From Flammeovirgaceae bacterium 311 (GTDB lineage: Bacteria; Bacteroidota; Bacteroidia; Cytophagales; Cyclobacteriaceae): a stretch of DNA of 64,000 bases. Position numbers and translations under genes: made by a program. Shown here one piece after another: positions 19,766-44,950 of this stretch (positions are counted from its first letter, which is position 1; the number at the start of each line of letters is the position of its first letter). The stretch covers positions 4,865,001-4,929,000 of the forward strand of contig CP004371.1 of NCBI GenBank assembly GCA_000597885.1, read 5' to 3'. The notes beneath the pieces were generated by a model. The model saw only the letters and a program-made list of their open reading frames with translations, did no database searches and was not told the origin of the DNA.

Positions 19766-19802
19766 GCAAGCTACCTGCAGGCCTGCAGATCTATTAGGAT
19801 GC
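19766..19802 (-). promoter_or_regulatory. Putative phage late promoter, leftward copy
   Basis: On the minus strand, GCATCCTAA starts at 19802, a TAGCTTGC box starts 29 bp later, and the ATG follows 40 bp from the first base. This matches the geometry of the rightward copies. It is divergent from the copy at 19811, and the two GCATCCT boxes form an inverted repeat with an 8-bp spacer. Confidence 0.6.
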
Positions 19803-19810
19803 TGAATTTG

Positions 19811-19848
19811 GCATCCTAAAAATGGCAATTGCCATGCATCAACTTTGC
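19811..19848 (+). promoter_or_regulatory. Putative phage late promoter with TGGCAATTGCCA palindrome
   Basis: The GCATCCTAAAA box at 19811 is followed by the 12-bp palindrome at 19823-19834. CAACTTTGC then lies exactly 29 bp from the first base, and the ATG is at 19852. The start codon is only 4 nt after TTTG, which predicts a leaderless or nearly leaderless mRNA. Confidence 0.7.
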
Positions 19849-19851
19849 TGC

Positions 19852-20445
19852 ATGGGGAATGCAGATTACTTAATGCTTCATTGTGCTGCCACGCCGGAAG
19901 GGCGCGATGTGCAGCCACAGCACATTGCACAAATGCACCTGGGGCCATGCGACATCTTGAAGGGTGGCAAATACCTGGGCACAAAATACAACGGCCGCAC
20001 CTACCATAATAGGGCCGTGCTTCCGGAAGCAATCATCGGCGGCGTACCCATACACAAACTCAATGGCCGTGGCTGGCAGCAGGTAGGTTATCGGGAGCTG
20101 ATCGACATTTTCGGAAAGGTCCACATCCTGGTTGATTATAATGATGATGCCTGGATCCAGGACAATGAGATCACCAACGGCGCGGCCGGATGGAATCACA
20201 AAACCATTCACATTGTGTATGCCGGCGGCGTCGATCAGAACCTAAAGGCCAAGGACACCCGCACCGCAAAGCAACGCGAAGCCATGGCTGCCCTGGTGTG
20301 CCGCTACATCCTCCATCACCCCAACATCAAAGTAATAGGCCACAACCAGGTAGCCCGCAAGGATTGCCCTTCATTTGATGTGCCGGCATGGGCTAAGAGC
20401 CTGGGCCTCGATCCAAAGAACATCGAAACCCGCAAATTCTACTAA
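19852..20445 (+). CDS. N-acetylmuramoyl-L-alanine amidase (endolysin)
   Basis: This 197-residue enzyme should cleave the amide between MurNAc and L-Ala during lysis. It belongs to the Amidase_2/T7-lysozyme type. The N-terminal LMLHCAATPEGRD supplies the first zinc His, NHKTIHIVYAGG the central strand, and GHNQVARKDCPSFDVPAW the second His and the Cys ligand. There is no signal peptide, so a holin or other export route is needed. The ATG at 19852 fits the promoter geometry; ATG 19873 is an alternative. It heads an operon with tail-appendage genes. Confidence 0.85.
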   Translation: MGNADYLMLHCAATPEGRDVQPQHIAQMHLGPCDILKGGKYLGTKYNGRTYHNRAVLPEAIIGGVPIHKLNGRGWQQVGYRELIDIFGKVHILVDYNDDAWIQDNEITNGAAGWNHKTIHIVYAGGVDQNLKAKDTRTAKQREAMAALVCRYILHHPNIKVIGHNQVARKDCPSFDVPAWAKSLGLDPKNIETRKFY

Positions 20446-21020
20446 TGGCAGTCATTGTTAAAGCGGCTCCCAGAACAGTAGGCCCTAATCCTCCGGGCCT
20501 GGCCATGGTGATCCCTATCCCCGCTGATCAGATCATCAGCATGCCTGAATACGTGCCTAATGGTGAGCTGGACGATGATCTCCTGGTATTAAATGATGCC
20601 ACCGTGCATGCTTTTTGGGTGCATGATCTTGGAGGAGAATTTGAGGAGCGCTTGAGGGTAAACAGTGCCGGCGGCTACTATGATGTTTCTGTTGAGTTTC
20701 TGCACGTTGGTCCGGAAGCAGAATCAGATGCCATCTTCCGCCCATGGAAGGGCCGGGAGTTTTGCCTGCTGGCCACCACGAACCAGGGCAAGCGGCTGCT
20801 AATCGGCAGTAAGGAGCGCCCGCTCCAGGTCGAGATCCGGAAGACGACCGGATCACTTAGCGGCCTTTATGGCTACCGCTTAAGCTTCCAGGGTGAGCAG
20901 CTCTGGCCGGCTCCCCGCATGATCGGTGAATTTGTTGGCGGCAATCCAGAGGTACCACCAGCAGAGCAGCAGATGATCGACTGGAGCGAATACGACTTTA
21001 CATACATGGATTTCTACTAA
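20445..21020 (+). CDS. Phage hypothetical protein
   Basis: This 191-residue protein starts within the stop of the amidase gene (TAATG), so it is translationally coupled. It is rich in beta-strand character (FWVHDLGGEFEERLRV, GGYYDVSVEFLHVG) with an acidic, aromatic end. No family is recognised. Its position in front of appendage genes suggests a virion or tail-fibre accessory protein. Confidence 0.65.
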   Translation: MAVIVKAAPRTVGPNPPGLAMVIPIPADQIISMPEYVPNGELDDDLLVLNDATVHAFWVHDLGGEFEERLRVNSAGGYYDVSVEFLHVGPEAESDAIFRPWKGREFCLLATTNQGKRLLIGSKERPLQVEIRKTTGSLSGLYGYRLSFQGEQLWPAPRMIGEFVGGNPEVPPAEQQMIDWSEYDFTYMDFY

Positions 21021-21021
21021 G

Positions 21022-21717
21022 ATGGCTGTACTGGATAAAAGTGCATTACTGCAGCGCATGCTGCAAAAGATCCGCTCCAATGGAGTGGGAGGCAAAACCC
21101 AGGCTGTTGAGCTTAGGGATTTTCTTACCGATTTGATCGATACAGTTTTTAGCCTGGCAGAAGGTGCATCCGTTAGCCAGGCAGAGCTGGCCTGGGATCC
21201 GGAGGCAACCTATAATACCACAGACAAACCTTTTGCTGTATATGATGATCGGTTTTACAAATCGAAGGTAGCTCCTAACATCAACAACGTGCCCCCCATA
21301 GTTCCGGACGTCAATGGCAAGTATGAAGATGCCAACTGGGTGGAAGTATCTGCAGGCCTGAAGAGCAGTATAAAAGCCTGGAGGCCGGGCCTGTTCACTG
21401 CCACCGAAGAAGACGAAAAGATCATCGTGGGCCAGGGCACCTATTTATATGCCCTCAATGAAAATGTTTCCCTTCCCTTTGAAAGTACTGACTTCACCAC
21501 AGAGCTGGCGCAGGGCAAGTGGGTGCTGCAGGGTAGTAAGATTAAGACCTCTGATGATTCAGGGCTTTTGATTGATATGTCTACTTACCAAGCTGGCTAT
21601 GTGCTGGTTGCGCATCCTACTACACCTAACCTCTTAGTTTTTGCGGAAGCGACTACCACAGAAACACCTCCTGAATCAGGACAATTCACCTATACATTAC
21701 CCTTAACACTGGTATAA
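21022..21717 (+). CDS. Phage hypothetical, probable tail-appendage protein
   Basis: The 231-residue protein has a helical N-terminus (LLQRMLQKIRSNG, ELRDFLTDLIDTVFS). A beta-rich part with a carbohydrate-binding-like motif follows (AYDPEAT-type: AWDPEATYNTTDKPFAVYDD). The latter resembles small modules in phage receptor-binding proteins. The start is 1 bp after the preceding stop. Function is inferred from context only. Confidence 0.6.
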   Translation: MAVLDKSALLQRMLQKIRSNGVGGKTQAVELRDFLTDLIDTVFSLAEGASVSQAELAWDPEATYNTTDKPFAVYDDRFYKSKVAPNINNVPPIVPDVNGKYEDANWVEVSAGLKSSIKAWRPGLFTATEEDEKIIVGQGTYLYALNENVSLPFESTDFTTELAQGKWVLQGSKIKTSDDSGLLIDMSTYQAGYVLVAHPTTPNLLVFAEATTTETPPESGQFTYTLPLTLV

Positions 21718-23325
21718 ATGGCAAAGATCACAACTGCAAATAAAACCACCGGCGAGACCTTCAGCGCTGCAGAGTATAATGAAATCAAATCTTCAGTTAA
21801 CAGCCTATACGACAACACAGAAACTGTAGTTGAGGCTTTTTCAACAGAGCTATTATTTAACAAGCCTGCTAAAGACCAAAGTGGCGGCACTTATCAGCAA
21901 ACCGGCCCGCTCTCTTTTACTGTAAATGCGGCAAGTAGTTATATTTCTGGTACAATACGCCGCGAAATAGAGGCAGACGGAATAAGCCCGATCTCTTTTT
22001 CATCCGACTTTAACCGGATTTACCATAATGATTTTTTAAACGGGCAACCTTTAACGGCGGGCGTACATGAATTACTCTTTATGTATAAGCACGGCGGGCT
22101 AGTGAGTGTTAATATACTTTCCGGAGCGACGGCCGGCTCAGGTGGCGGAAATGCTAATTTACCGCCCGCTCCGCAAGATGTAACCGTAACAAATGTACAA
22201 GATACTACAGCTACGGTGAGCTGGTCGGCGGTTAGCAATATGCAGGGGTATAATGTATTTGTTAACGGCAACAAGTCGAACGACCCTATAATTACAGCGC
22301 TTACCTACAACATAACAGGCTTAACGCCTGGCACGTCTTATAGTATCGAGGTTAAGGCCGTGAACGCTGAAAACGCCGTTTCAGCTACAGATCCGGCGCA
22401 ACTTAAAACGATTCTTACCAAGCCTGCACAAGTCGGTTCTGTTACTGTTACGCCGGGTACATTCCAGAATACTATATCCTGGGGAGCGGTTGTAAGTGCA
22501 ACAAGTTACGGGCTTGAATTTAGCACGGACGGCGCAACCTTTGCGGCGCTGGTTGTACAATCCGGCACAAACTATCTGCATAGCGGATTAACCGCCGGCA
22601 CTACTTACCACTACAGAGTAAGGGCGATTAACGCAACTGGAACGTCTGTAAACTGGAGCAATGTAGTTACCGGCGTACCTACATCCGGGGTAACAACCTT
22701 GTATAGCCATAACTTTGCAGGCACTACCAACGATGCAAGCAAAGGAACTGTTATTAATCCTAACCCTACGCTTATACAAATTAGCCAGAACGATAAGCTA
22801 GAACTACGCAACTTAGCAAGCGGTACAACGGGCGGTTCTTATAATAACCGCTGGGAATCTGTATCACTTGGAAATGCCAACGTGATGAATGGCCTTTTAA
22901 CCTTTGATGCTACAGTAGTAGGCGAAAACGGCGTGGCTACTCATAACATCGGATTAGGGGAAAGTTTTGCAGACTGCCTTTATTTTAACAGGCAGTCAAG
23001 TTCTGGTAGATTTAATAAGGTTAGGCTTACGATTCGTAAAGATTCGGTAAGCATACATACAATAGATTTAGCAGATACTGATGTTGTAAACCCTAACAGC
23101 ATAGATTATGCCTTTATTACACATATGCGAATCATTAAAAACGGTACAAATTTCAGGTTCTTTACCTCAATTGACAATGGTGCTTCATTCCAGCAAATCG
23201 GTAATGTAGGTGGATATACAGTAGATTACGGCACAAGGCCGATGAAAGCGTTTGCCGCGCTGGATGCAAATAACTCTACGCTTAAAGTGGTTACTGTTAA
23301 CCTTGTAACCCTAACAGATAGTTAA
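21718..23325 (+). CDS. Fibronectin type III tail-appendage protein
   Basis: The 535-residue protein begins with a short helical attachment segment (about 1-60). A linker leads into two fibronectin type III repeats (about 150-235: PPAPQDVTVTNVQDTTATVSW; and 240-325: TYHYRVRAINATG). The C-terminal 200 residues form a beta-sandwich, lectin-like domain. It is likely a receptor-binding or host-surface adhesion protein. From about 21.9 kb the codon choice shifts towards A/T-ending codons compared with the flanking phage genes, suggesting module exchange. Confidence 0.75.
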   Translation: MAKITTANKTTGETFSAAEYNEIKSSVNSLYDNTETVVEAFSTELLFNKPAKDQSGGTYQQTGPLSFTVNAASSYISGTIRREIEADGISPISFSSDFNRIYHNDFLNGQPLTAGVHELLFMYKHGGLVSVNILSGATAGSGGGNANLPPAPQDVTVTNVQDTTATVSWSAVSNMQGYNVFVNGNKSNDPIITALTYNITGLTPGTSYSIEVKAVNAENAVSATDPAQLKTILTKPAQVGSVTVTPGTFQNTISWGAVVSATSYGLEFSTDGATFAALVVQSGTNYLHSGLTAGTTYHYRVRAINATGTSVNWSNVVTGVPTSGVTTLYSHNFAGTTNDASKGTVINPNPTLIQISQNDKLELRNLASGTTGGSYNNRWESVSLGNANVMNGLLTFDATVVGENGVATHNIGLGESFADCLYFNRQSSSGRFNKVRLTIRKDSVSIHTIDLADTDVVNPNSIDYAFITHMRIIKNGTNFRFFTSIDNGASFQQIGNVGGYTVDYGTRPMKAFAALDANNSTLKVVTVNLVTLTDS

Positions 23326-23326
23326 T

Positions 23327-24700
23327 ATGAGGGCTTTTATTAATTCTCTTTTTAGGGGGGTTCAACTTTCGGGAATCCCGCCGCGCCAGTCGCTTTACCT
23401 TACCGAGGAAGGTAGGTTGAGCGAATGGAAGCCGGTAAGCAGCCCTTTTAGTACGGTTAACGGACTAGTTTATAACCGCGTGAACGGCCATCACTATTTT
23501 TCGGCACAAAGCATCGGAGGTATACCCTGGAACAGAAGCAGCTTTGTTTATCGATACGATAAATCCGGTAATCAGATTGTGCAACAGGTACATATACCGA
23601 AACATAATGATATTACCGAGGCCTGGGACACTCACCCAGTGCCCGTTACTCATGTATTAGAGGATGGCAATATCTTGGTTACGGTTGAAAAAACGATGGA
23701 TTCAAACAACAGGAGTAACGGACATAATACCGATATGTTACTTTACAAAACAACGGTTCCGGGTGATTTGTCTACGTTAGCTTATTGGAAAAGCCTACCC
23801 GGCTTTTACTGTTATCCAAAAGTTTGGCAAAAGGGGCCGTACATTCATTTTAATTTCAGGGGTACGAGAGGCGGCCTGGACCTTACAAAAACTATCTTAG
23901 AAAGCAGCTATGATAGCGGCGTAACATTTACAGATCGTATAATTGTAGATATTCCGATGACCTCTCCGTTGCGCAGGGCTTACACCCGTATGTTGTGGGA
24001 TGAAAGCAGCGAGGAAATGATATTGCTACTTACTATCCGAAACGATAGTATAGGCATTTATGAAAGTGTTTATGCAATTCGGAGTCATATTTCAGACGGC
24101 AAGGTATGGCAAAATTGGGAGGGGACATTTAGTAAAGACGTAAGCACCCAGGGCGCTATTACCTTTGCTGAAATTCAACCCTGTTTAGTCTGGTATAATA
24201 ACCCGGAGCAATACATAACACTTGCAGAGGGCGGGGCGGCCGCAAACGGCACACTTAAATTGCTCATGAGTCGTAGTATACCCACAGGCGGCGTATTTGA
24301 TAACAACGCGGAGAGTACGCAAGAAGATTTAAGACTGTTTTTCAATGATGGTAGCGGCTGGAAGTGGAACAGTTTAAAATCGATAATGCCTTCACCGAGC
24401 TATGCTCATTACACTTCGCAAGAAAACCTTATATCTTTCGCTTCGCTGCCGGATGCCGATTATATACAGGTGATGGATAAAACAAATTCTCCTGTTTGCC
24501 GCCTTTACGAACACAGAAGCACAAATAACTTTCAAAGCTATACCTCTAAATTGATTTGGGAGGGCGTTGGGAGCTATTACCTAGGGCCTAAAACTGCAAA
24601 CGCAAGAAGCATAAAAGAGCAATTAAGCTTGTTAGTAGATGTTCAGGGGCAGCAAACTCAATTTAATTCCAGTTCAAATCTTTTGGTTTTAGATGCCTAA
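23327..24700 (+). CDS. BNR/sialidase-like beta-propeller appendage protein
   Basis: This 457-residue protein starts 1 bp after the FN3 protein. Repeated blade-like elements such as NGLVYNRVNGHHYFSAQ, LPGFYCYPKVWQKGPYIHF and SSYDSGVTFTDRI, and the Asp-box-like SYDSGVTF, suggest a six-bladed propeller of the BNR type. It could bind or cleave a surface glycan during adsorption. No catalytic triad was assigned. It shares the unusual codon use of the preceding gene. An overlapping terminator/promoter follows. Confidence 0.6.
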   Translation: MRAFINSLFRGVQLSGIPPRQSLYLTEEGRLSEWKPVSSPFSTVNGLVYNRVNGHHYFSAQSIGGIPWNRSSFVYRYDKSGNQIVQQVHIPKHNDITEAWDTHPVPVTHVLEDGNILVTVEKTMDSNNRSNGHNTDMLLYKTTVPGDLSTLAYWKSLPGFYCYPKVWQKGPYIHFNFRGTRGGLDLTKTILESSYDSGVTFTDRIIVDIPMTSPLRRAYTRMLWDESSEEMILLLTIRNDSIGIYESVYAIRSHISDGKVWQNWEGTFSKDVSTQGAITFAEIQPCLVWYNNPEQYITLAEGGAAANGTLKLLMSRSIPTGGVFDNNAESTQEDLRLFFNDGSGWKWNSLKSIMPSPSYAHYTSQENLISFASLPDADYIQVMDKTNSPVCRLYEHRSTNNFQSYTSKLIWEGVGSYYLGPKTANARSIKEQLSLLVDVQGQQTQFNSSSNLLVLDA

Positions 24701-24715
24701 CTAACCCCCATTTTC

Positions 24716-24753
24716 GCATCCTAAAATATTTTTTCAGTCCTGAAGAGCTTTGT
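24716..24753 (+). promoter_or_regulatory. Putative phage late promoter overlapping a terminator
   Basis: GCATCCTAAAA begins at 24716 and GAGCTTTGT sits at the conserved 29-bp offset. Here the ATG lies 68 bp from the box instead of 40-42, giving a predicted leader of about 27 nt. The -7-like box is also the left arm of the hairpin at 24744-24781. Confidence 0.55.
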
Positions 24754-24781
24754 GATCAACACTGACCACAAAGCTCTTTTT
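24744..24781 (+). terminator. Terminator ending the tail-appendage operon
   Basis: A perfect 11-bp stem (AGAGCTTTGTG / CACAAAGCTCT) with a 12-nt loop runs into TTTT immediately before the protease start codon. Transcripts arriving from upstream can form the full hairpin. Transcripts starting at the overlapping promoter would begin in the loop and lack the left arm. Confidence 0.75.
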
Positions 24782-24783
24782 GC

Positions 24784-26025
24784 ATGCACGAGATTCTATC
24801 TACCAGACTCTGGGCTCTTGAAAGTAAGTACTTCGATGCGATGGCACCCCTGGTGCTTAAGCGTATTGCCAATGGCGGCAATATCGAGGCACTGAAGGCA
24901 GAGCACAAGGAGCTGCAGGCAGGGCTCGCTTACGATGATGCCACAGGCCTGATCGTATTTGAGACCGAGCAGGGCAAAGTGTGCATCATCCAGGTGACTG
25001 GCGCCATGAGCAAAAACGGGGGCATGTGCTCCTACGGCACCAAGTCTCTTTCCTCTGCAATTGCTAAAGTCAATTCAGCGGATCATATCAAAGGGATCGT
25101 GCTCGTGGGTGATACACCAGGTGGAGCCGTCGATGGCCTGCCGGAGTTTGCTGAAGCAATTCGCACCAGCACAAAGCCGATTGTAACATTTATCGACGGT
25201 ATGCTTTGCAGTGCCGGCTACTGGTTCGGATCCCAATCCAGGTACATCATCGCCAATAAGCTTAACTACGCTACTATCGGATCAATCGGCACGCTCTGCA
25301 TGCTGGTGGATCAGACGGAATGGCTGAAGAAAGAAGGTCTGAAGGTGACGATCCTCCGCGCTGATCAGAGCAAGGATAAGGCTGTACTGAATCCTTATGA
25401 AGAGGCTCCAACCGAAGCAGTGGAGGCTCTGAAAGCAGAGCTGAACCTGATCACGGAAGACTTCATCTCCGCAGTGAAGGCCGGCAGGGGCATCAAACTT
25501 AGAACCGGCAAGGAAGATATCTTCACCGGCAAAACCTACTCCAAAGATGAAGCCCTTAAGATGGGCATGATCGACAGCATCGGATCTCTGAATGATGCTG
25601 TAACCAAAGTGCTCCAGCTGGCTAAGCAAAAGAGCACCTCCACAATACCCGCAACCACTTCCAAGCAATCAAATATGAAGATTTTCGGAATCTCCTTCGG
25701 CAAAGAAGCCGGAGCAGAGCTCACTGATGAGCAAACCTCTGCCCTGCAGGCCGCTGAAGCAAAAGCGAATGCTGCTGAGGCGAAAGTAGCACAACAGGCT
25801 ACTGAATTAGAATCGCTCAAATCTGCCAAGGCAGCACTGGAGCAGAAGGATCAGGAGCAGGCGAAGACGATCAGCGAACAGGCTGATCAGATCAAGCGCC
25901 TGGAGGCAGCTGGTGACTCCACCACTGCCGCAATCAAAGAAGGTGATAACAACACCGGCGCTGGCCAGCAGACTCGCAAGAAGTACAGCTGGGAAGTGAA
26001 AGCCGAGAAAAAGGCAGGTAAATAA
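24784..26025 (+). CDS. Capsid maturation protease (S49/SppA-like) fused to scaffold
   Basis: The 413-residue protein has a peptidase S49/ClpP-like domain (about 60-280: GIVLVGDTPGGAVDGLPEF, FIDGMLCSAGYWFGSQS with the likely Ser nucleophile in CSAGYW, and GSIGTL). A C-terminal coiled coil follows (about 320-395, Ala/Glu/Lys-rich). Protease-scaffold fusions like this lie upstream of major capsid genes in many phages. An internal in-frame ATG at 25675 could yield free scaffold. The major capsid gene follows 23 bp downstream. Confidence 0.85.
   Translation: MHEILSTRLWALESKYFDAMAPLVLKRIANGGNIEALKAEHKELQAGLAYDDATGLIVFETEQGKVCIIQVTGAMSKNGGMCSYGTKSLSSAIAKVNSADHIKGIVLVGDTPGGAVDGLPEFAEAIRTSTKPIVTFIDGMLCSAGYWFGSQSRYIIANKLNYATIGSIGTLCMLVDQTEWLKKEGLKVTILRADQSKDKAVLNPYEEAPTEAVEALKAELNLITEDFISAVKAGRGIKLRTGKEDIFTGKTYSKDEALKMGMIDSIGSLNDAVTKVLQLAKQKSTSTIPATTSKQSNMKIFGISFGKEAGAELTDEQTSALQAAEAKANAAEAKVAQQATELESLKSAKAALEQKDQEQAKTISEQADQIKRLEAAGDSTTAAIKEGDNNTGAGQQTRKKYSWEVKAEKKAGK
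25675..26025 (+). CDS. Candidate nested scaffold protein
   Basis: An in-frame ATG (codon 298 of the protease gene) begins MKIFGISFGKEAGAEL, which looks like an authentic protein start. It precedes the acidic coiled coil. Internal translation here would give a 116-residue scaffold, like lambda Nu3 within gene C. The upstream A-rich CAATCAAAT fits Bacteroidota initiation regions, which rarely use strong Shine-Dalgarno sites. Confidence 0.4.
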   Translation: MKIFGISFGKEAGAELTDEQTSALQAAEAKANAAEAKVAQQATELESLKSAKAALEQKDQEQAKTISEQADQIKRLEAAGDSTTAAIKEGDNNTGAGQQTRKKYSWEVKAEKKAGK

Positions 26026-26048
26026 ACTACTACTCTTAAACGCAAATC

Positions 26049-26996
26049 ATGAGCGCTCTGAAAATTGACGAACTCGTTGACGCACTAGGCGATTACAACC
26101 GCGAGCACAGGGATGTGCTGATCAGCGAGGCTCTTCTGGATGAAGACTTCCAGAACAATTATGAGGTGATGGATGATGTGACCGACGAGGTTCCCCTTCC
26201 CAGCCTTGCCATCACTGACCTGATCAAGCCAGGTAACCCAACCGCCTTCCAGCCTACCAGCAATGCGCTGCAGTTTGGAGCCCGTATTCTGAAGGTTCGC
26301 CCTATCAAGGTTGACCTTTTGCTTGTACCCCAGATCATGGAAAAGACCTGGTTGGGCAAGATGAAAAAGTCTTCTGATCATGGTGCAATTCCATTCGAGC
26401 AATTCATCATGCAGTACATCTCCAGCAAGATCCGCGAAAACGTGCGTCTGCAGGGCATCTACAAAGGCGTTTACAACGCTGCCGGCACTACGCCTATCGA
26501 TACCATGACTGGCTGGCTGAAGCTGATCGCTGATGACATCGCTGATGTTGCCAATGGCCAGATCTCTCCGGTAGTTACTGGTGCAGTTACTGCCACTAAC
26601 ATCATCGATTCTGCAGAAGCAGTGTATGATGGACTTGGTGAGGCTTACAAAAACGTGCCTACCGAAATGAAGGTAGCACCTTCACTTTTTGACTGGTATG
26701 GCCGCCGCTACCGCTCGCTTTTCAATGGCTCTCCAATCTATACCGGCATCAAGCGTGACCGCGTGCAGCTGGATGGCACCCTTTGCGAGCTGGTACGTGA
26801 TCCAGGCCTGGCAGGTAGCCAGCGCATGATCTGCACTCCTAAGGAGAACCTGGTATTTGGTGTAGACAGCTTAAGCGACTACAACCTGGACATCCAGAAG
26901 GAGAACAGGACTATCAAGATCCTGATCGACTTCAAGGCAGGCGTTGAATTCAAAGAAGTGCACCCACGCGCACTCTCTGTAAACGACCAGGCGTAA
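26049..26996 (+). CDS. Major capsid protein
   Basis: The 315-residue product follows the protease/scaffold gene directly. Its make-up is typical of an HK97-fold capsid subunit: a helical N-terminus, a long segment with VRPIKVDLLLVPQIMEKTWLG, and a late strand pair (NRTIKILIDFKAGVEF). The end EVHPRALSVNDQA is also consistent. Direct family recognition is not possible by eye; position and size carry the call. Codon use is strongly biased to common codons, as expected of an abundant protein. Confidence 0.8.
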   Translation: MSALKIDELVDALGDYNREHRDVLISEALLDEDFQNNYEVMDDVTDEVPLPSLAITDLIKPGNPTAFQPTSNALQFGARILKVRPIKVDLLLVPQIMEKTWLGKMKKSSDHGAIPFEQFIMQYISSKIRENVRLQGIYKGVYNAAGTTPIDTMTGWLKLIADDIADVANGQISPVVTGAVTATNIIDSAEAVYDGLGEAYKNVPTEMKVAPSLFDWYGRRYRSLFNGSPIYTGIKRDRVQLDGTLCELVRDPGLAGSQRMICTPKENLVFGVDSLSDYNLDIQKENRTIKILIDFKAGVEFKEVHPRALSVNDQA

Positions 26997-27065
26997 GAAA
27001 GTGCCCTCCGGGGCTCTTTCTCTTTAGTAAATCAATTGTAAGACTTCACTTAAAAGTTAATTATA

Positions 27066-27314: not shown

Positions 27315-27317
27315 GCC

Positions 27318-27845: not shown

Positions 27846-28066
27846 TGGCTGGGCTGGAGCAATACCGGCTTAAGGTGACACCGGAGAGCAAATTCATTGT
27901 CTCCAGTAAACTCCCGGGCGGTATGGTGCACATCGATCATTTAACGGATGCTTTAGCCGCCCTGCTGATAGGTGACGGCATAAGCCATTACGTTGAGAAG
28001 ATAAAGGTCGAGCAGCAGACGGAAACGAAGCGAGGGAAGACCAATAAGAAGCCTGCTAGTAAATAG
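27845..28066 (+). CDS. Small basic phage protein
   Basis: This 73-residue protein starts inside the preceding stop (TAATG). It has a compact N-terminal domain and a Lys-rich tail (ETKRGKTNKKPASK). No family is recognised. Its stop codon lies inside the terminator hairpin that closes this capsid operon. Confidence 0.6.
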   Translation: MAGLEQYRLKVTPESKFIVSSKLPGGMVHIDHLTDALAALLIGDGISHYVEKIKVEQQTETKRGKTNKKPASK

Positions 28067-37512: not shown

Positions 37513-38672
37513 TGGCGCTATTTCCTCCAACCATAAAACCACCTGTCAGGCGATTCTTAAGCCGGAACCCGATCGTTGTTGAATACATGTCTGGCTACCA
37601 CCAGGAGCTAAACTTCCGGATGGAATGCGAGCTTGCTGTTTACAACAGTGTTGGCGCATACATGGGCACCCATATCCAAAGAGGTGTGCCTGACAGCGCT
37701 GGCCTATTCGGCTTTCACCTGCATAGCATTGCTCATTCCTTTCTTAAGCCGGCGCTGCCAGCTAAAAACGGTATCTCCTGGGGCGATACTGCCATGGTAA
37801 ACGTCAAGGTTAAAATCAGGGAGTACTGGGGGGAACCTGCTACTTATAAAAGAATAGCGCTAGAGGCCAGCCACTTTGTCTTTTTAGGTGGAGTCGATCC
37901 CCGAAAAACATCTACAGACTGGTTTGCCAAAATAAAAGGATACCAGACCTGGGCGCCCAACAATAAGCTGGTGGGACCTGCTCAGGAGGATTACCTGACG
38001 CTATTTACCTCCCTGGCTGCCTATAGCACAGTATATCTGCATGCAAAGGTTGTATATGATGATGGCAGCTTTGGTGAATACATGCTGCTGACTGCCAACA
38101 ATGTGCTTAACACAGTCCTTCATTTCCCTGCAGGCTTTGAGCAGCTGGGGCTGCACCTGAAGCAACCGGCTAAAAGAGCGCTTAGCTACACCCTGTATGC
38201 CAGCAATAATGCAGATCCTGCAGCACTGGCAGGCAGAAACGACGAGCGCACTTACCTGCTGGATTACGCGCACTATCCAACTGCCAGAACCTTCCTGTAC
38301 CTCAACAGCCTGGGCGGGTGGGAAACCCTTCGCTGCACCGGCTCTTTTAAGGAAAACTGGGATGAGGAGCATGAAACTGCCCAGCGCATGGTACCCTACA
38401 ACCAGACTTCACAGATCAGCCCTTTCTTTTCTTTCAATCATAGTGCCAGGACCAGCATCAAGGGCAACACGGGCCGGCAGCTCTCCAGGACCTGGTACCG
38501 GCATCTGAAAGAATTTACGCTTAGCCGGGAGGTGTACGAAATTACGCCTGCAGGCAGAGTTAAGGTGATCCTGAAGCCTGGTAAATACCAGATTGGCGAG
38601 GACCGGAACACTGAAATGAGCCTCGATTTTGACTACAGCTACGCCCACGAAACCCATAGCTATACGCCTTAA
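37512..38672 (+). CDS. Phage tail protein, hypothetical
   Basis: The 386-residue, beta-rich protein contains many Tyr/Phe strands (YHQELNFRMECELAVY, NVKVKIREYWGEP, GKYQIGEDRN, LDFDYSYAHETHSY). It lies directly before a 659-residue probable tail-tip protein. A baseplate or distal-tail role is plausible. No family is recognised. Confidence 0.6.
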   Translation: MALFPPTIKPPVRRFLSRNPIVVEYMSGYHQELNFRMECELAVYNSVGAYMGTHIQRGVPDSAGLFGFHLHSIAHSFLKPALPAKNGISWGDTAMVNVKVKIREYWGEPATYKRIALEASHFVFLGGVDPRKTSTDWFAKIKGYQTWAPNNKLVGPAQEDYLTLFTSLAAYSTVYLHAKVVYDDGSFGEYMLLTANNVLNTVLHFPAGFEQLGLHLKQPAKRALSYTLYASNNADPAALAGRNDERTYLLDYAHYPTARTFLYLNSLGGWETLRCTGSFKENWDEEHETAQRMVPYNQTSQISPFFSFNHSARTSIKGNTGRQLSRTWYRHLKEFTLSREVYEITPAGRVKVILKPGKYQIGEDRNTEMSLDFDYSYAHETHSYTP

Positions 38673-38674
38673 TT

Positions 38675-40654
38675 ATGCTCGATATTCAGATCAAGCCTGA
38701 AGGCTACACAGATTACGTAAGCCTGGAGCTTCCGGAGAACTTCAATCTCTCCATGGAGGACAATAACCCCTTGTTTGCCATCGATATCATCGAGGGCACC
38801 TACAGCTTTGCTACAAGCCTGCCTGCATCTCCTCATAACACCAGGCTGCTTAATTTTGCCAACGACTGGCACGCATCCACGCCGCCGCCCAGGCAGATAC
38901 CGGCACGGCTTTTTAAAGATGGTATCCTGCACTCTCCGGGGATCCTGATGCTCCGGGGCTCCGGAGCCAAAGGCTTCCGGATCAACTACCAGAGCAAGAT
39001 GAGCGGCCTGGGTGATAAGCTTAGCATGAAGCTTACTGAGCTTAACCAGGTGGAGCATGTGTTGCTTAGCCTCAACAACATCTCCTTTCTAAGGGGGCAG
39101 GATAAGCAGGGTAATGCCCCTCAGGTTACATACGCTCCTCCGTTGCCGGATGGTAATAGAAAGTGGGTGAGAATCAGATTCACCCGATCCTTAGATATCA
39201 CTTTTGCATCAAAGGTTAAGATCAATGAAGAGGAATTTGTGCGTGTTGATCTTATACCCATTGAAAATATCATTGATAATATCAATGCCTCTCAAAGCTA
39301 CAGAGCCTGCTATGAATTCTATCGATATGGCTCCTCTGCTGGTGAGAATGATGGCATGGACCTGTTCATCTGGCAGCTGAACGGAGATCCCTCTGCTCCA
39401 TTGGAGGTTACATTCGAGGATCCTATCAAAGACCCTACAAGGATCTCCGTGTATGATAGCTATGCCCCTTACTGGAATGCAGCTATTCAGGCCAGCATCG
39501 ATGCGCTGTATTTCAACAATGCAGAGAGCAACTTTGTATGCCCTACCTTCTATGGGCCCAATCTTTGGACAGGCGTCGATGAGTCGCTGGCCATTAAGCT
39601 GGGCAAGCAGGTAAACCGGCCAAAGCTTGCCGGCAACGGCTACGAGCTGGCGCCCATATCGCCGCATTTCAGCACCTACAGCATCGTACCGATGTTCACC
39701 CTTAAATACCTGCTGCGGCAAATTGAAAGCACCACCGGCGTCAGGATTATGGTGAACTGGGGCAATATGCCGGGCCTGGAGCAGCTGTTTCTCTTCAACA
39801 CGCAAACCATTAATTGCTTTGAAAAAGTATATGAGGATTACTGGGTAGGCACCTATCAGCCAGTGATCAAGCCGATTGATCATCTTCCGGACATGTCGGT
39901 GAGTGAATTCCTGCTGGAGCTGAAAAAGCTGTTTGCGCTCTCGATCACCTACAGTGTGGAGGATAATGTACTGACCATTGGCGCGATCGATAATGCACTG
40001 AAGGGCAAGCCAATTGAAGACTGGACCATTAAGACTGATCCGGACTATGATATTGAGTGGACCGAAAACCCTGGACTCAAGGTAGGTTACAAAACTGATA
40101 AGGATGATGTGCTCACGCAGATCGTTAGTGAGGATGGCGTTGTTGTGCAGGAGGGGATCACGACAGAACTGGTGATAGGATCCGGCCAGCAGGACTACAG
40201 GAGCATGCTAAGCCCTACGCTTGTTGCCCATCTCAATGGCGCTATGAAGATGCCAAAGACAAGCCTGAAGGGGGGCTGGTTTACTTCTAAGGTAGAGGTA
40301 AAGCCAAAGGTATTGCTTTACCATGGCATAAGCGCCAGCACCAGAAATCACCCGTATCCTTTTGCCAGCATTGACAATATCGATAGCAACGGCAATGTGG
40401 TGGGATTGCTTAGCCTGGAGCTGGAGGGTGATTACAGCCTCTATAAGCTTTATCTTCGCAGGCACGCTGATATGATGCATGTCGGGCTGCAGATCAGTGG
40501 TACCCTGTATCTTAGCCTTCCGGATCTGCTCAACTGGGAGTACAATAATGTGTACCGGATTAACCAGCGAAACTTCCTGATCCGGAAGCTTAGCTATAAC
40601 CTGAACCGCAGTGAAACGATCATTGCAAAAGCTGAGATTGTCTCCGCTTACTGA
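38675..40654 (+). CDS. Tail tip / hub-like protein
   Basis: The 659-residue protein begins with strands reminiscent of hub proteins (MLDIQIKPEGYTDYVSLELP, FSMEDN-type turn, IIEGTYSFATSLPASPHNTRLLNF). A long mixed region follows, with a beta-rich end (LNRSETIIAKAEIVSAY). In related Bacteroidota prophages a protein of this type lies near the tape measure. Function is inferred. Confidence 0.6.
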   Translation: MLDIQIKPEGYTDYVSLELPENFNLSMEDNNPLFAIDIIEGTYSFATSLPASPHNTRLLNFANDWHASTPPPRQIPARLFKDGILHSPGILMLRGSGAKGFRINYQSKMSGLGDKLSMKLTELNQVEHVLLSLNNISFLRGQDKQGNAPQVTYAPPLPDGNRKWVRIRFTRSLDITFASKVKINEEEFVRVDLIPIENIIDNINASQSYRACYEFYRYGSSAGENDGMDLFIWQLNGDPSAPLEVTFEDPIKDPTRISVYDSYAPYWNAAIQASIDALYFNNAESNFVCPTFYGPNLWTGVDESLAIKLGKQVNRPKLAGNGYELAPISPHFSTYSIVPMFTLKYLLRQIESTTGVRIMVNWGNMPGLEQLFLFNTQTINCFEKVYEDYWVGTYQPVIKPIDHLPDMSVSEFLLELKKLFALSITYSVEDNVLTIGAIDNALKGKPIEDWTIKTDPDYDIEWTENPGLKVGYKTDKDDVLTQIVSEDGVVVQEGITTELVIGSGQQDYRSMLSPTLVAHLNGAMKMPKTSLKGGWFTSKVEVKPKVLLYHGISASTRNHPYPFASIDNIDSNGNVVGLLSLELEGDYSLYKLYLRRHADMMHVGLQISGTLYLSLPDLLNWEYNNVYRINQRNFLIRKLSYNLNRSETIIAKAEIVSAY

Positions 40655-40831
40655 TCAGTCTTTGTTTATGCTGAAGAACTCTACAACATCCATTATGACT
40701 GCGATCAGTAAAACGTAACCTAATTTTTCGAAAAGGTTCTTTACCATCTCCTCCTTTTCAGGTGTTATTTCAGTGGTTTCTAGAATGGCCGCTCCAATAA
40801 AGAGCAGGCCAATAAAAATTACTGTCCTCAT
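40655..40831 (-). CDS. Small two-helix membrane protein (accessory operon gene 5)
   Basis: This 58-residue protein has two hydrophobic segments (TVIFIGLLFIGAAIL and LGYVLLIAVIMDVVEFF) joined by a charged loop. It is the last gene of a leftward five-gene operon in the late region. Size and topology fit a holin-like or exclusion protein. Its stop codon directly abuts that of the tail-tip gene. Confidence 0.55.
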   Translation of the reverse strand: MRTVIFIGLLFIGAAILETTEITPEKEEMVKNLFEKLGYVLLIAVIMDVVEFFSINKD

Positions 40832-40836
40832 AACGC

Positions 40837-41022
40837 TTAATCGTTTACTTGATCCTGGGAGAAAATTTGTTTGTAAGGATAGAAAACCAGCAACACCAGG
40901 TGATGCAGCAAGCTTAGCCATGCCATCTTTGGGCAGCTGGTATTGAATAGCCAGACATGAATGAGTACCAGCAGCACATTTCCGATCAGGAAGGGCACCA
41001 GGTGCAAGAGTTTCTTTTTCAT
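40837..41022 (-). CDS. Small membrane protein (accessory operon gene 4)
   Basis: The 61-residue protein has hydrophobic segments (LLHLVPFLIGNVLLVLIHVW, WLSLLHHLVLLVFY). The ATG at 41022 overlaps the previous gene's stop (ATGA). Together with the next gene it forms a membrane pair. No family is recognised. Confidence 0.55.
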   Translation of the reverse strand: MKKKLLHLVPFLIGNVLLVLIHVWLFNTSCPKMAWLSLLHHLVLLVFYPYKQIFSQDQVND

Positions 41023-41336
41023 ACGATCCTGGTGCAACCTGCATTGATAAGTTTTTTGCTTGCATTGGCCATGTTCAATGCCTGAAAGTAGATACAGTGT
41101 TCTTTGATTACTACTTTGCTGCGCATAGTTGGCTTTTCCGGATTCTTAGCAGAGAAATCTGCTACATGAACTTTCTCCTCTGTAAAAGCGGCCTTGTTCA
41201 GCTCCCCTGTTAACTTGTTGTATTCGAATAGCGTCAGACCAGGTCTTTTTCTGGTAGTGCCCAGGAGCTCGACAACTTTTTTTTCCTGCTGCTCTATGGC
41301 AACAGGATCTGCTTTACAGCTTTTTGTCTGTATCAT
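41019..41336 (-). CDS. Hypothetical protein (accessory operon gene 3)
   Basis: This 105-residue protein is soluble and basic, with TRKRPGLTLFEYNKLTGE and a C-terminal NAGCTRIV. It is coupled by ATGA overlaps to its neighbours on both sides. No family is recognised. Confidence 0.55.
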   Translation of the reverse strand: MIQTKSCKADPVAIEQQEKKVVELLGTTRKRPGLTLFEYNKLTGELNKAAFTEEKVHVADFSAKNPEKPTMRSKVVIKEHCIYFQALNMANASKKLINAGCTRIV

Positions 41337-41566
41337 TTGTGGAAGTGGTATTGGATATTCTGGCCCCTCACTGGCTTGGTAGTAGGCTTAGGCAGGGCTA
41401 TGATCAGGAACTCCTGGGGAGCATCCGGTACCGGTTCATCTGCACTCATCAGCCTCCCGGTAAGTTGGGTGATGGCGGCCAGGTGATGCGATGGCTGCTG
41501 TGCAACCAGCTCCAGATTACCCAGCAGCATGAGAATTTCTTTATAGGTTGATTTTACGAGTATCAT
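41333..41566 (-). CDS. Hypothetical protein (accessory operon gene 2)
   Basis: The 77-residue protein has a helical N-terminus (MILVKSTYKEILMLLGNLEL) and a Pro-rich C-terminus. ATGA overlaps couple it to genes 1 and 3. No family is recognised. Confidence 0.55.
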   Translation of the reverse strand: MILVKSTYKEILMLLGNLELVAQQPSHHLAAITQLTGRLMSADEPVPDAPQEFLIIALPKPTTKPVRGQNIQYHFHK

Positions 41567-42018
41567 ATTCCCCACTTTCCGGTTAGGTGTGCGTTGTAAT
41601 AGCGCCGCAGATTGTCGCGGCCATAATCGTCTTCTGAAAGGTCGTAGCGCTCGTAAAAAGCATCGATGGCTTTTACAATATCTCCGTGCTTCTCATAGGT
41701 AGCTTTCAGCCACATGCAGAAAGACTGCTTGAAGAACTGGTCCAGGAACTGGCTTATCATCTCCAGCTTCCACTCCTCCACACATGCGTTTTTTACAAAA
41801 GATGAGTCTAAAATGAAGGCTAGGCTTTGCTTAGGTATGCGCTGAGGCTTAAATTGTGAAAGATCACTGGTGAGGCCCATGGCCATGATATTGCCAAGCA
41901 AGTGCCTCCGGTTTACTTTGATAGCGGTACCCTCACGGTGATCTACCACCCGATGAGCAAACTCATGGATGAGGTACTTCTTAACAGCTTCCGAAACCGG
42001 CACATGCACTACTATCAT
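41563..42018 (-). CDS. Prophage hypothetical with HEFAH motif (accessory operon gene 1)
   Basis: The 151-residue protein starts MIVVHVPVSEAVKKY and contains HEFAH near residue 18, which matches HExxH, but no third metal ligand is evident. The C-terminal half (HGDIVKAIDAFYERYDLSEDDY, NLRRYYNAHLTG) resembles a domain I recall in Bacteroidota prophage hypotheticals. It opens a leftward operon against the late genes. The function is unknown. Confidence 0.6.
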   Translation of the reverse strand: MIVVHVPVSEAVKKYLIHEFAHRVVDHREGTAIKVNRRHLLGNIMAMGLTSDLSQFKPQRIPKQSLAFILDSSFVKNACVEEWKLEMISQFLDQFFKQSFCMWLKATYEKHGDIVKAIDAFYERYDLSEDDYGRDNLRRYYNAHLTGKWGI

Positions 42019-42090
42019 TGCAGATATTTGCGTGAATCTTGAGCCAAATTAGCATGTAAGAAAAAGGTAAAATAGTAGCATTTGGACACC

Positions 42091-42130
42091 GTGGGGAACA
42101 GTGCTTTTTAGTGGGGGAAAGTGCGTTTTT
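42091..42130. repeat. Two tandem 20-bp repeats in divergent control region
   Basis: GTGGGGAACAGTGCTTTTTA (42091-42110) is followed directly by GTGGGGGAAAGTGCGTTTTT (42111-42130), 16 of 20 bases identical. A degenerate GTGGGTTTTGGTGGGG follows at 42141. The exact 20-bp period equals two helical turns. They lie between divergent genes 42018(-) and 42253(+). Confidence 0.6.
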
Positions 42131-42211
42131 GTTGCCTATCGTGGGTTTTGGTGGGGCATGAAATAAAAGCCACCTGCACATAGTATTTATTTTATATCAG
42201 CATATTATATT

Positions 42212-42222
42212 CTGACAGTCAG
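42212..42222. promoter_or_regulatory. CTGACAGTCAG palindrome upstream of small HTH gene
   Basis: A perfect inverted repeat, CTGAC-A-GTCAG, lies about 30 bp upstream of the ATG at 42253. A CACCTTTTG promoter-like box ends 6 nt before that ATG. It differs from the GCATCC late promoters, so this gene is controlled separately. Confidence 0.45.
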
Positions 42223-42252
42223 GAATTATCTCAACAACACCTTTTGTAAGAA

Positions 42253-42423
42253 ATGACCACAATACGCAAAAGCGAGCTTGCCAACGCACTTGGTATCAGC
42301 ACAGAAGAATTGCGCCGTACCTGTAAGAAAATAGGCTTTTCCTCTGGCAACAGAAAGAACCTCTGGCCCTCTGAAGTAAGACGGATCAAGGAGGGAATCG
42401 AACTTAGTGTAGCCAAACCGTAA
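42253..42423 (+). CDS. Small helix-turn-helix protein
   Basis: A 56-residue protein reads MTTIRKSELANALGISTEEL and continues with a basic helix (LRRTCKKIGFSSG, WPSEVRRIKEGIEL). This looks like a compact MerR/excisionase-type winged or helix-turn-helix DNA-binding protein. It sits between the accessory operon and the tape measure with its own promoter. It is a candidate regulator of the late promoters, by size and fold only. Confidence 0.6.
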   Translation: MTTIRKSELANALGISTEELRRTCKKIGFSSGNRKNLWPSEVRRIKEGIELSVAKP

Positions 42424-42433
42424 GGGCAAATTC

Positions 42434-42470
42434 GCATCCTAGTTTAGCCCTCCTGGTGCTGCCAAATTGC
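42434..42470 (+). promoter_or_regulatory. Putative phage late promoter, tape-measure gene
   Basis: GCATCCTAG at 42434 is followed by CCAAATTGC at a 28-bp offset, and the ATG is at 42476 (42 bp). Both boxes are slightly degenerate compared with the other copies, and there is no palindrome. Confidence 0.6.
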
Positions 42471-42475
42471 CTATT

Positions 42476-44950
42476 ATGGCAGCAACTAGGGTTGATAAAG
42501 TACAAGTTGAAGTTGAAATAGGCGGAGAAAAGGTCAAAAACACGATTGGCGACCTTGAGAAAGCCTATAAACAGCTGAACCGTGAGCGCAAGCACATGAC
42601 CGTTGGTACCGAAGAGTATATTCGAAAAACGGAAGCGCTTAAGGATGTAAAGTCAAGACTTAAGGAAGTTGGCAATGAGGTGAATGGCATCGACGATGCC
42701 AATAAAGGGGCACTTCAAAGCTTCCTGCAGTTAACCGGCATGGATGGGAAAGTGGCAGCACTTTCCTCCACTATCAAAGGTACTGGAGGCAATGTATTAA
42801 GCATGGCCAAAAGCTTTACCACATTGAGGGGAGCCATCATCGGCACTGGTTTTGGTGCGCTCATTATTCTGCTGGGCTCCCTGATCAGCTATTTTACTAC
42901 CACCCAGGAAGGCATCGATAGAGTTACTGCCGTGACCCGGCCGCTTACTGCTATTTTTGAACGCCTCAAAGGCGTAGTGCAGGAGTTGGGAGGCAAGACA
43001 TTCAAAGGCCTGGCCACTGCAGTCAAAGAGCCGCAGAAAGCGCTCGATGGGCTCGTCAGTTTTATCAAGGACCAGGTGATGGCGCGATTTGAGGCTATTG
43101 GCCTTGCCGGCAGAGCCATCATGAAGATCATCAAAGGTGATTGGGAGGATGGCCTTAAAGACCTGGGCAATGCCGGGATCCAGTATACGACGGGTATGCG
43201 CGATGGCATCGATAAGATCAGCAATGCCGCAAAAGAAACCAGCAAATGGGTTAAGGAGGGTGTAGATGCCGGCGCTAAGCTGGATAAGCTGCAGAAAGAA
43301 ATTGAGCGCGACGAGATCAATGCCAAAAAGCGCAGGCAGGAGCTTATGCTACTTGCCAAACAGCAGAATTTTATAGTTGAAGACGAGACGAAAAGCTTTA
43401 ATGAGCGCCGTGAGGCTGCACAAAAAGCACTAGCTGCCCAGGAACAAATGGACCTGATCAACCTCAATCTGATGGATAAGAAGATTGAGAAGATCAAGCT
43501 GGAGCAGAGCCTGAACGACACCAGCCGCGAAAATGAAATGGAGCTGGCAGAGCTGGAGGCAGAGCGTGCGGAGAAGGCTGCAGCTATCGTCGAAATGCGT
43601 ACCACTACGCGCAACAAGCTTAACCAGCTTAATAAGGCTGAATCTGCCGAAACCAAAAAGCACATCGATGAGGAGGCCAAGCTCCGGGAGGATATGCGCA
43701 AGCGGGAGCTGGAGGCAGAGCAGGCCCTGCAGGAGCTCCGGATTGCCCTGATGGCCGATGGCCTGCCAAAGCTGGAGGCACAGCTCAACCTGGAATACGA
43801 TCGCAAGCTTGCTGCACTCCAGGGCAATGAAGCACAGATCACAGAGCAGAGGCTGCTCCTGGAGCAGGAACGCCAGCTCAGGCTGGAAGCCGTGCAGGAT
43901 GAGTGGGCGGAAAAGGAAAAAGTTAAGCAGCAGGAGCGCTGGGCCAAGCGCATGGAGGAAAACAAGCTGGCAGAAGAAATGGAGCTGCTGGAGCTTGAAG
44001 AAAAGTATGCGCGTGCGATCGAAAGTGAGCAGGCTTATGAGGATGCCAAATTTGAGGTGCAACGTGAGGCTTTGCTGCAGCGCCTGGAGATGCAGGCAGA
44101 ACTGCATGGTACCGAAAGCATCGAATACCAGCGTGTGCTTACAGAGCTGGCCAGGATGGATAAGGCTCATCTGGATCAGAAGCTCGACCAGGAGAAAAAG
44201 CACCAGGAGCACCTGGGAAAACTTAGGGAAGCTGGCCACAAAGGGGCAGTAGATATGCTGCAGCTGGGCATTGAGCTGCTTAGCCAGGACGAAGATTCCC
44301 GTAAAAAACATGCTAAGAAAATTAAGGCTCTGGCCATTGCTCAGATAGGCATCAACCTGCTCGATGAGGTGCAGGGTATCTGGAAGAATGCGAACCAGCT
44401 GCCGCCCTACATTGGTATTCCGCTGGGTATTATACAAACAGGCCTGGCTGTTGCCCGTGGAGGTGCTGCGATCGGCAAGGTTAATTCTACGAAATACGCG
44501 AAGGGTGGTATATTGGGAGGATCCAGGCACTCCCAGGGCGGCAATCCTGTGATCGACAGCAGAACAGGCGAAGTGATCGCAGAGCTGGAGGCCGGAGAGC
44601 CTCACATGATTTTAAGCCGAAACACCTACGCCAACAACCGTGGCATTGTAGATATGCTGCTTTACAACAGCCAGTACCGCCAGGGTGCTCCAATCTTCGA
44701 ATCCGGAGGTGTGCTCAATCCATACAAGGCAGCTGCCAGTGCTGCCGCCAGTGGAGGCTCCCAGATGAACCCTGCAGCAGGGGCGCCTGCTCCGGATCCG
44801 TACATGCCTATGATCCTGGCAGAGCTGCAGCGACTCAATGCGATTACCAGCGCCTGGCCTACTGTGGTAAAGGCTGCTGTCTATCTCAACGAGCTGGAGG
44901 CTGCCCAGGATGAGAAAGCCCAAGTGATCTCTGATGCCCAGGTGAAATAA
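42476..44950 (+). CDS. Tail tape measure protein
   Basis: The 824-residue protein has the tape-measure make-up: an N-terminal domain, a hydrophobic segment (GAIIGTGFGALIILLGSLISY, about 123-143), and long Glu/Lys/Leu coiled coils (about 260-600). A C-terminal Gly-rich region (KYAKGGILGGSRHSQGGNP) is followed by a helical end. At about 1.5 angstrom per residue it would set a tail near 120 nm. ATG 42476 is used; a TTG three codons upstream is not compatible with the promoter. Confidence 0.88.
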   Translation: MAATRVDKVQVEVEIGGEKVKNTIGDLEKAYKQLNRERKHMTVGTEEYIRKTEALKDVKSRLKEVGNEVNGIDDANKGALQSFLQLTGMDGKVAALSSTIKGTGGNVLSMAKSFTTLRGAIIGTGFGALIILLGSLISYFTTTQEGIDRVTAVTRPLTAIFERLKGVVQELGGKTFKGLATAVKEPQKALDGLVSFIKDQVMARFEAIGLAGRAIMKIIKGDWEDGLKDLGNAGIQYTTGMRDGIDKISNAAKETSKWVKEGVDAGAKLDKLQKEIERDEINAKKRRQELMLLAKQQNFIVEDETKSFNERREAAQKALAAQEQMDLINLNLMDKKIEKIKLEQSLNDTSRENEMELAELEAERAEKAAAIVEMRTTTRNKLNQLNKAESAETKKHIDEEAKLREDMRKRELEAEQALQELRIALMADGLPKLEAQLNLEYDRKLAALQGNEAQITEQRLLLEQERQLRLEAVQDEWAEKEKVKQQERWAKRMEENKLAEEMELLELEEKYARAIESEQAYEDAKFEVQREALLQRLEMQAELHGTESIEYQRVLTELARMDKAHLDQKLDQEKKHQEHLGKLREAGHKGAVDMLQLGIELLSQDEDSRKKHAKKIKALAIAQIGINLLDEVQGIWKNANQLPPYIGIPLGIIQTGLAVARGGAAIGKVNSTKYAKGGILGGSRHSQGGNPVIDSRTGEVIAELEAGEPHMILSRNTYANNRGIVDMLLYNSQYRQGAPIFESGGVLNPYKAAASAAASGGSQMNPAAGAPAPDPYMPMILAELQRLNAITSAWPTVVKAAVYLNELEAAQDEKAQVISDAQVK

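Follow-up and report, generated by a model that had tools for sequence, protein, structure and literature searches.

The middle promoters of phage T4 combine a MotA box with a normal -10 element, at which sigma70 is remodelled by AsiA, and phages P2 and Mu encode small late activators, Ogr and C, that serve several late operons via repeated sites. The Bacteroidota housekeeping promoter, read by sigma-ABfr, has TTTG at -33 and TAnnTTTG at -7. Promoter data for Flavobacterium johnsoniae, on which the numbering used here is based, give T-12 A-11 T-8 T-7 T-6 G-5, with 4-5 nucleotides (nt) from this element to the transcription start (PMC6847099). Here, we describe late promoters of a prophage in Flammeovirgaceae bacterium 311, lying in a window of 64,000 nt (CP004371.1, positions 4865001-4929000, forward strand; a single-contig genome of 6.67 Mb) whose own coordinates are used below. 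These sites agree with the sigma-ABfr promoter in their -7 element, in its register and in the 4 nt that separate it from the predicted start. They differ in lacking TTTG at -33 and carrying instead a box whose core, RTCCT, lies at -39 to -35, and in a phage ATG predicted at +1, whereas leaders are mostly longer in F. johnsoniae. The box frequently co-occurs with a gene of a protein family that we call A1.

As in T4 middle promoters, a phage box takes the place of the upstream element and the host -10-type element is intact, here as judged by sequence only. Unlike them, the box has another sequence, is centred at about -37 rather than -30 and precedes late rather than middle genes. No relatives of A1 related to MotA or AsiA were found in Pfam, NCBIfam or the Protein Data Bank (PDB), the fold comparison covering A1 alone. 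As with Ogr and C, a small phage activator, here a candidate, would serve several late operons by repeated sites; unlike theirs, the box overlaps the -33 region, and A1 matches neither Pfam family. One A1 member, gp8 of phage BT-TP2, lies two genes upstream of the protease gene gp10 and was labelled 'transcriptional regulator' by its depositors, a label that is annotation only in a record without a target site. Among the matches listed in open-access PubMed Central, none was found to describe a late promoter or late regulator of this kind for Bacteroidota phages. The sites form a real, conserved late-promoter class of Bacteroidota phages. Their general kind, a phage box joined to a host -7 element and, probably, to a phage activator, is already known; the box, the candidate activator family and the predicted leaderless transcripts are the new parts. 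If the account given below is true, it supplies a sequence rule by which phages of a phylum prominent in gut and sea can be searched for late operons and true start codons. It then also points to a candidate master regulator that one reporter could test, and makes ribosome start on leaderless mRNA, which is rare in the phylum, directly testable in Bacteroidota.

Promoter architecture in the prophage

The seven sites from which an earlier note on this DNA had proposed a late-promoter family are all present, with exact GCATCCTAA at six (19802 on the minus strand, 19811, 24716, 28078, 31457 and 36116) and GCATCCTAG at 42434 (Table 1). They head late gene blocks, as had been claimed, and at six of them the ATG lies 40-42 nt from the first base of the box, the exception being 24716, at 68. 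Counted from RTCCT, the distances are 38 (19802-), 39 (19811), 40 (28078), 39 (31457), 40 (36116), 40 (42434) and 66 (24716). A second box had been read as CAnnTTTGC; it is there, in the form TAnnTTTG with some drift (19802- TAGCTTGC, 24716 GAGCTTTG, 28078 CATTTTTGG, 42434 CCAAATTG). The variant noticed at 36019 ranks 12th in the window with a matrix built from other phages, but it reads CCTTAGC and lacks a suitably spaced ATG. The window was said to hold no further copy, yet an eighth GCATCCTA lies at 21612, inside coding sequence. TTTG is not found at the -33 position of the seven sites: with the box taken at -39 to -35, positions -36 to -33 read CTAA in six and CTAG in one. Boxes 28078 and 36116 directly follow a terminator-like hairpin with a T-run, recognized by eye, so that one late operon seems to end where the next starts. 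At 19794-19819 two boxes stand back to back, 8 bp apart, at the head of divergent genes. No box other than the leftward one was seen on the minus strand; homologs of the gene that it heads, 19229-19762(-), immediately precede a tape-measure-like gene in two other regions, G075 and G057 (G and L numbers are our own labels).

When 53 RTCCT promoters were aligned on the box (one per gene, four ATCCTA sites included, window prophage excluded; a set distinct from the 50 placed copies described below), positions +27 to +34 read T45 A79 n n T71 T88 T52 G56 in per cent, which is the Bacteroidota -7 element TAnnTTTG. The ATG stands exactly 39 nt from the box start in 28 of the 50 placed copies, and by the spacing published for the -7 element (PMC6847099) this ATG would be +1 and the box -39 to -35. 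The -7 element is usually followed by the ATG after 4 nt, and the late mRNAs are therefore predicted to be leaderless, starting on the start codon or no more than about 1 nt from it, except in the protease operon, where the mRNA from 24716 would have a leader of ~27 nt. For comparison, leaders exceed 10 nt in 87% of the transcripts predicted for F. johnsoniae (PMC6847099), and 5' untranslated regions under 10 nt make up ~3.7% in Bacteroides thetaiotaomicron (PMC7366714). With a matrix trained without the window prophage, five of the seven sites come 1st, 2nd, 4th, 7th and 8th in the window. The class is defined by several RTCCT boxes, each 36-46 nt upstream of an ATG, together with an A1 gene; in the window prophage six of the seven sites lie in that range and A1 is at 41563-42018. 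The proposal that the -7 element is kept and the -33 element replaced at late blocks is borne out: diverged phages show the same architecture in register, and few host genes are preceded by it.

The box is set apart in the host genome by where it lies. GCATCCTA occurs eight times in the window against 2.55 expected by shuffling, a count reached by none of 100 shuffles. The 6.67-Mb genome has 26 copies of GCATCCTAA, six in the prophage and 20 elsewhere; because its reversed control has 22, the unusual feature is the clustering rather than the total number, with six copies in 22.7 kb where 0.07 would be expected from the density elsewhere (P about 1e-10). A genome-wide motif search had been named as the test that could refute the proposal, and the full two-box motif turned out to be confined to the prophage: GCATCCTA-N18-21-CAnnTTTG has four matches, all four in the prophage (reversed control 0), and GCATCCTAA-N19-20-NAnnTTTG has five, again all there (control 0). 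Over 148 genomes the latter pattern gave one match each in eight others, similar to the control.

The RTCCT box in other phages

The sites had been described as prophage-specific, which is too narrow, as the core RTCCT is common to other phages and only the flanks (GC...AA here) are private. Relatives of the prophage terminase, at 31-35% identity, were found in G075, G057 and G104, and none was confirmed in the genome-contig or viral-contig collections. Starting from the -7 box alone, GTCCTA was met 27 nt upstream of nAnnTTTG at three genes in G075 and three in G104, and counts of repeated 9-mers alone brought out CACGTCCTA in G057 (five genes) and CCGTCCTAC in G007 (three). In a per-region hexamer test covering -47 to -30 of open reading frame (ORF) starts, a GTCCT- or ATCCTA-type word ranks first in the window prophage, G104, G569, G057, G042 and the phages Leef_1 and Ingeline, and is among the top six in G075, G007, G630, G651 and Mea-Yong. 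No such top word appeared in laban6-1, 6H, Porphyromonas phage017a, G623, G097 or the 7-kb G636, and G559 shows TGTCCC.

Eighteen regions, consisting of phage records and of prophage regions with some host flank, were then pooled without the window prophage; G651, G559 and G623 among them share one genus with G123, a region taken up below. GTCCT is the first of the 1024 5-mers by positional enrichment 36-46 nt before ATG, and its reverse complement AGGAC has no positional peak in the same pool. Counting distinct copies rather than copy-ATG pairs, 50 of 717 GTCCT copies are so placed, in 15 of the 18 regions, some of them (at the edge of G559 and several in G630) probably by chance; host DNA, 400 kb taken from five of the genomes, gives 2 of 389. 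For GTCCTA the corresponding values are 26 of 125 and 0 of 52. The exact register (A28, T31, T32) is found in 33 of the 50 placed copies, from 12 of the 18 regions, against 34 of 667 other copies and neither of the two placed host copies.

Further phages were chosen in different ways. Among those selected because A1 is present (BT-TP2, MT835542, MT835875 and Porphyromonas phage025a), well-formed sites number two in BT-TP2, one in MT835542 and one in phage025a. MT836146, picked by portal similarity, showed neither A1 nor a well-formed site. All seven placed GTCCT copies of G020, G026 and G123, terminase-related regions in which A1 had previously not been found and which are close relatives of one another, are in register. 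Five Bacteroidota phages without detectable A1 (B40-8, 11b, RAP44, FCL-2 and bases 1-50000 of crAss001) have three of 191 copies placed, two of them inside a gene of crAss001, and none of the three in register. Searching with the pattern GTCCTA-N20-21-AnnTTTG-N2-6-ATG was abandoned as a detector: it matched 65 of 395 genomes of the class, mostly once each and twice in five, is unspecific outside prophages, had a reversed control that looked at least as frequent (an impression, not a count), and misses the window prophage, whose spelling is ATCCTA. A two-box pattern found once each in 18 viral contigs was judged to be chance, and the window-type box with its palindrome had no match in the genome-contig collection.

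Within a phage the box tends to keep one spelling: GCATCCTAA in the window prophage, CCCACGTCCTA at all five placed GTCCT sites of G057, GTCCTG at four of five in G042, ATGTCCTTTT at three of four in Leef_1, GTCCTTTTAA at three of three in Ingeline, ACGCTGTCCTT at three of three in Mea-Yong and GTCCTTTT at both sites of Porphyromonas phage017a. Such phage-by-phage spelling would be expected if a diverging trans-acting factor reads the box, and does not prove it. In the four annotated phages, with early and late divided by ourselves from the annotation, every placed GTCCT site precedes a virion-gene block: Leef_1 four of four (gp02, gp04, gp05, gp46), Ingeline three of three (gp01, gp07, gp29), Mea-Yong three of three and phage017a two of two. 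Microcystis phage Mea-Yong924-1 (L062), recorded from a cyanobacterium, has an A1 gene and the late box at three genes; its capsid protein closely resembles the one in the window prophage (E 2e-126), and its true host may be a Bacteroidota bacterium. Porphyromonas phage017a (L063) also has tandem GTCCTAC repeats, in places 8 to 10 bp apart, at 9896-10212 and 46507-46523, just before its A1 gene and beside the integrase.

Candidate activator family A1 and alternative explanations

Outside the virion and lysis blocks, only three ORFs of the window have homologs in at least three of 11 other regions: the two integrases and 41563-42018(-), the A1 gene. With iterated profiles, A1 was detected in 10 of the 12 regions of the first comparison; across the taxonomic family, 14 of 295 genomes have it, counting the window genome (weakest E 8e-4); the member of G057, missed initially, sits immediately before the first late box. 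A1 adjoins an S49-type protease gene, or lies one gene upstream of it, in G104, G569, Leef_1, Ingeline, Porphyromonas phages 017a and 025a, BT-TP2, G026 and G020, and precedes the protease by three or four genes in laban6-1 and 6H. Its strand is opposite to that of the adjacent late genes in the window prophage, G104 and G569, and in G007 and G651 the A1 gene is itself boxed, 39 or 42 nt before its ATG. An extended profile picked up, one gene upstream of the protease, a member of 177 amino acids in G026 (E 7.6e-7) and its ortholog in G020 (E 0.005), both regions having been chosen by terminase. All of the 10 members examined are basic, with an isoelectric point (pI) of 8.5-9.8. No family beyond chance was matched in Pfam and NCBIfam; at E up to 0.1, the 10 members hit in Pfam only OrgA_MxiK, RpoY and CD1375-like, one member each and at E 0.027 or worse, with Ogr/Delta and Mor/C absent. 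Two of the 10 strongly matched an unnamed PHROG. AlphaFold2 modelled the G104 homolog with a pLDDT of 84 from a 5-row alignment, and prediction from the sequence of the window protein alone gave a poor fold (pLDDT 45.7). Searched with Foldseek, the G104 model had no significant match in the PDB and found Leef_1 gp39 among viral models (E 3e-6, TM 0.75), in agreement with the sequence family. A ribbon-helix-helix reading of the N-terminus was dropped as without tool support.

From these data it is proposed that each late operon begins at a promoter of the host polymerase with the normal Bacteroidota -7 element (TAnnTTTG, -12 to -5), in which the weak host -33 element would be replaced by the phage box, GCATCCTAA in the window prophage. 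A phage activator, most likely the A1 protein, would bind the box late in the cycle and recruit or remodel the host sigma factor and RNA polymerase there, so that separate late operons, some right after a preceding terminator, would switch on together. The palindromes of some spacers, described below, may be operators for a second regulator at some late promoters. Taken whole, as late promoters with an RTCCT box and a host -7 element, A1 as the most likely activator and leaderless mRNAs, this account is considered likely. The wider claim is evenly balanced in our judgement: A1 would be the founding member of a new class of late activators that takes over the Bacteroidota housekeeping sigma via RTCCT in place of -33 and yields leaderless late mRNAs. 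Phage isolates and prophages of marine flavobacteria, gut Bacteroides and oral Porphyromonas alike would share this system, in which the protein and the flanks of its box would diverge together. The earlier note had foreseen a phage-encoded activator or a sigma-like factor. For the former there is now a candidate family, represented once in the window, and the trans-acting factor itself is still inferred; the latter finds no support, as no sigma family is among the matches of 40 phage proteins in PHROGs and 20 in Pfam (small ORFs partly scanned) and the -7 element belongs to the host sigma.

Several observations weigh against this account. The matrix leaves 19802(-) and 42434 outside the 16 best window sites shown, and 100 kb of host DNA scores up to 15.2, similar to the sites, which makes the matrix alone unspecific. 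The regions are partly related, and P values of the placed-copy test overstate accordingly. ATCCTA lies 38 nt before the early Ingeline gene gp12, although it is out of register and looks like chance. A1 is sited elsewhere in the window prophage (between tail genes) and in Mea-Yong (near the primase), its match in G123 is weak (E 0.02; none below E 1 with the extended profile), and laban6-1, 6H, G623 and MT835875 (a 16-kb piece) hold A1 with no placed GTCCT box. G559 has one placed copy, at the region edge, and TGTCCC before its A1 gene. Since A1 has no recognized DNA-binding domain or significant PDB match, it could also be a protein of other function beside late genes.

These last points bear on the strongest competing explanation, that the RTCCT late promoters are real and are served by another phage protein or a host factor while A1 does something else. 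The missing domain and the phages with A1 and no placed box fit it, as does a 56-amino-acid, helix-turn-helix-like ORF that adjoins A1 in the window (42253-42423 (+), recognized by eye), divergent from the A1 gene and just before the tape-measure promoter. However, that ORF has no homolog in the 18 other regions, whereas A1 alone accompanies the two integrases among the shared ORFs outside the virion and lysis blocks, and the box is rare before host genes; we regard another factor as unlikely. Alternatively, the sites could be strong constitutive promoters of host type that use no activator, RTCCT being a favourable upstream sequence for the host sigma; the -7 element is indeed the host's own, and the host -33 element is poorly defined (PMC6847099, PMC7366714). 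Against this stand the rarity of placed GTCCT in host DNA and the five phages without detectable A1, with hardly any placed copies and none in register. Moreover, capsid and lysis genes that are always on would harm the lysogen, and constitutive activity is considered very improbable. That the box is a silencing site where a phage repressor holds late operons off in the lysogen, like the repressor-bound stoperators of mycobacteriophage L5, is scarcely credible, for although the sites are short, asymmetric, aligned with transcription and in intergenic gaps, and some spacer palindromes could be operators, the fixed register to -7 and ATG fits a promoter element and AGGAC is not positioned.

Spacer palindromes and other features of the window

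Of 57 spacers, 11 contain a perfect palindrome of 10 bp or more, against a mean of 1.1 and a maximum of 6 among 500 shuffles. Five of the 11 are from the window prophage, and three are simple A+T stretches or nearly so. Palindromes of the GGCAATTGCC or GGCGATCGCC type are centred 16 nt past the box at three sites of the window prophage, in G057 and in G075, where they span 8 bp.

Table 1. Coordinates of the late promoters, spacer palindromes and related features in the window
Feature	Position	Strand	Details
Leftward late promoter, GCATCCTAA box	19794..19802	-	-7 TAGCTTGC at 19766-19773; ATG 19762 of gene 19229-19762(-)
GCATCCTAA box	19811..19819	+	-7 CAACTTTG at 19840-19847; ATG 19852 of amidase gene (phrog_822 amidase)
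GCATCCTAA box	24716..24724	+	-7 GAGCTTTG at 24745-24752; S49 protease gene start 24784
GCATCCTAA box	28078..28086	+	-7 CATTTTTG at 28107-28114; ATG 28120; block with terminase large subunit 29178-30680
GCATCCTAA box	31457..31465	+	-7 CAATTTTG at 31486-31493; ATG 31498; block with portal 31797-33152
GCATCCTAA box	36116..36124	+	-7 CACCTTTG at 36145-36152; ATG 36158; probable tail block
GCATCCTAG box	42434..42442	+	-7-like CCAAATTG at 42462-42469; ATG 42476 of probable tape-measure gene
GCCTCCTAA variant, probably degenerate	36019..36027	+	Sequence inspection, matrix rank
Spacer palindrome ATGGCAATTGCCAT	19822..19835		Centre 16 nt past RTCCT start
Spacer palindrome GGCAATTGCC	28091..28100		Palindrome scan
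Spacer palindrome TGGCAATTGCCA	36128..36139		Palindrome scan
Spacer palindrome CTGCAGGCCTGCAG, leftward promoter	19775..19788		Palindrome scan
Candidate late activator, family A1	41563..42018	-	151 amino acids, pI 8.5; homology; strand opposite to adjacent late genes
Prophage	16851..58093		Flanked by 50-bp direct repeats of part of a tRNA-Leu gene, repeat starts 16851 and 58038; right end approximate

Scans with PHROGs and Pfam found two integrases, the amidase, tail genes, the S49 protease and the terminase large subunit in the prophage, and the portal gene was identified via similarity to annotated portal genes. The gene starting at 42476 is probably the tape-measure gene, as judged from its length and position, its product having only a weak virion structural match in PHROGs. 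At the end of the late region, 44979-45750 (-) has the look of a HigB/HigA-type toxin-antitoxin pair (regulator side from PHROG matches, toxin side by eye); its gene 44979-45380, once considered as a late regulator, was dropped because it was read as a HigA-like antitoxin. Direct repeats of TGTCCTATATC lie near both attachment sites (16998-17020 and 57979-58005), one of them immediately upstream of an integrase ATG, and are perhaps integrase arm sites or sites for the same binding protein. The early region contains a tRNA-Met gene at 49988-50063 (-) and, at 52715-55001 (+), two ORFs that by eye resemble an IS21-type transposase pair. To the right of the prophage, 58211-58678 (+) looks by eye like an N-terminal integrase fragment, perhaps the trace of another integration.

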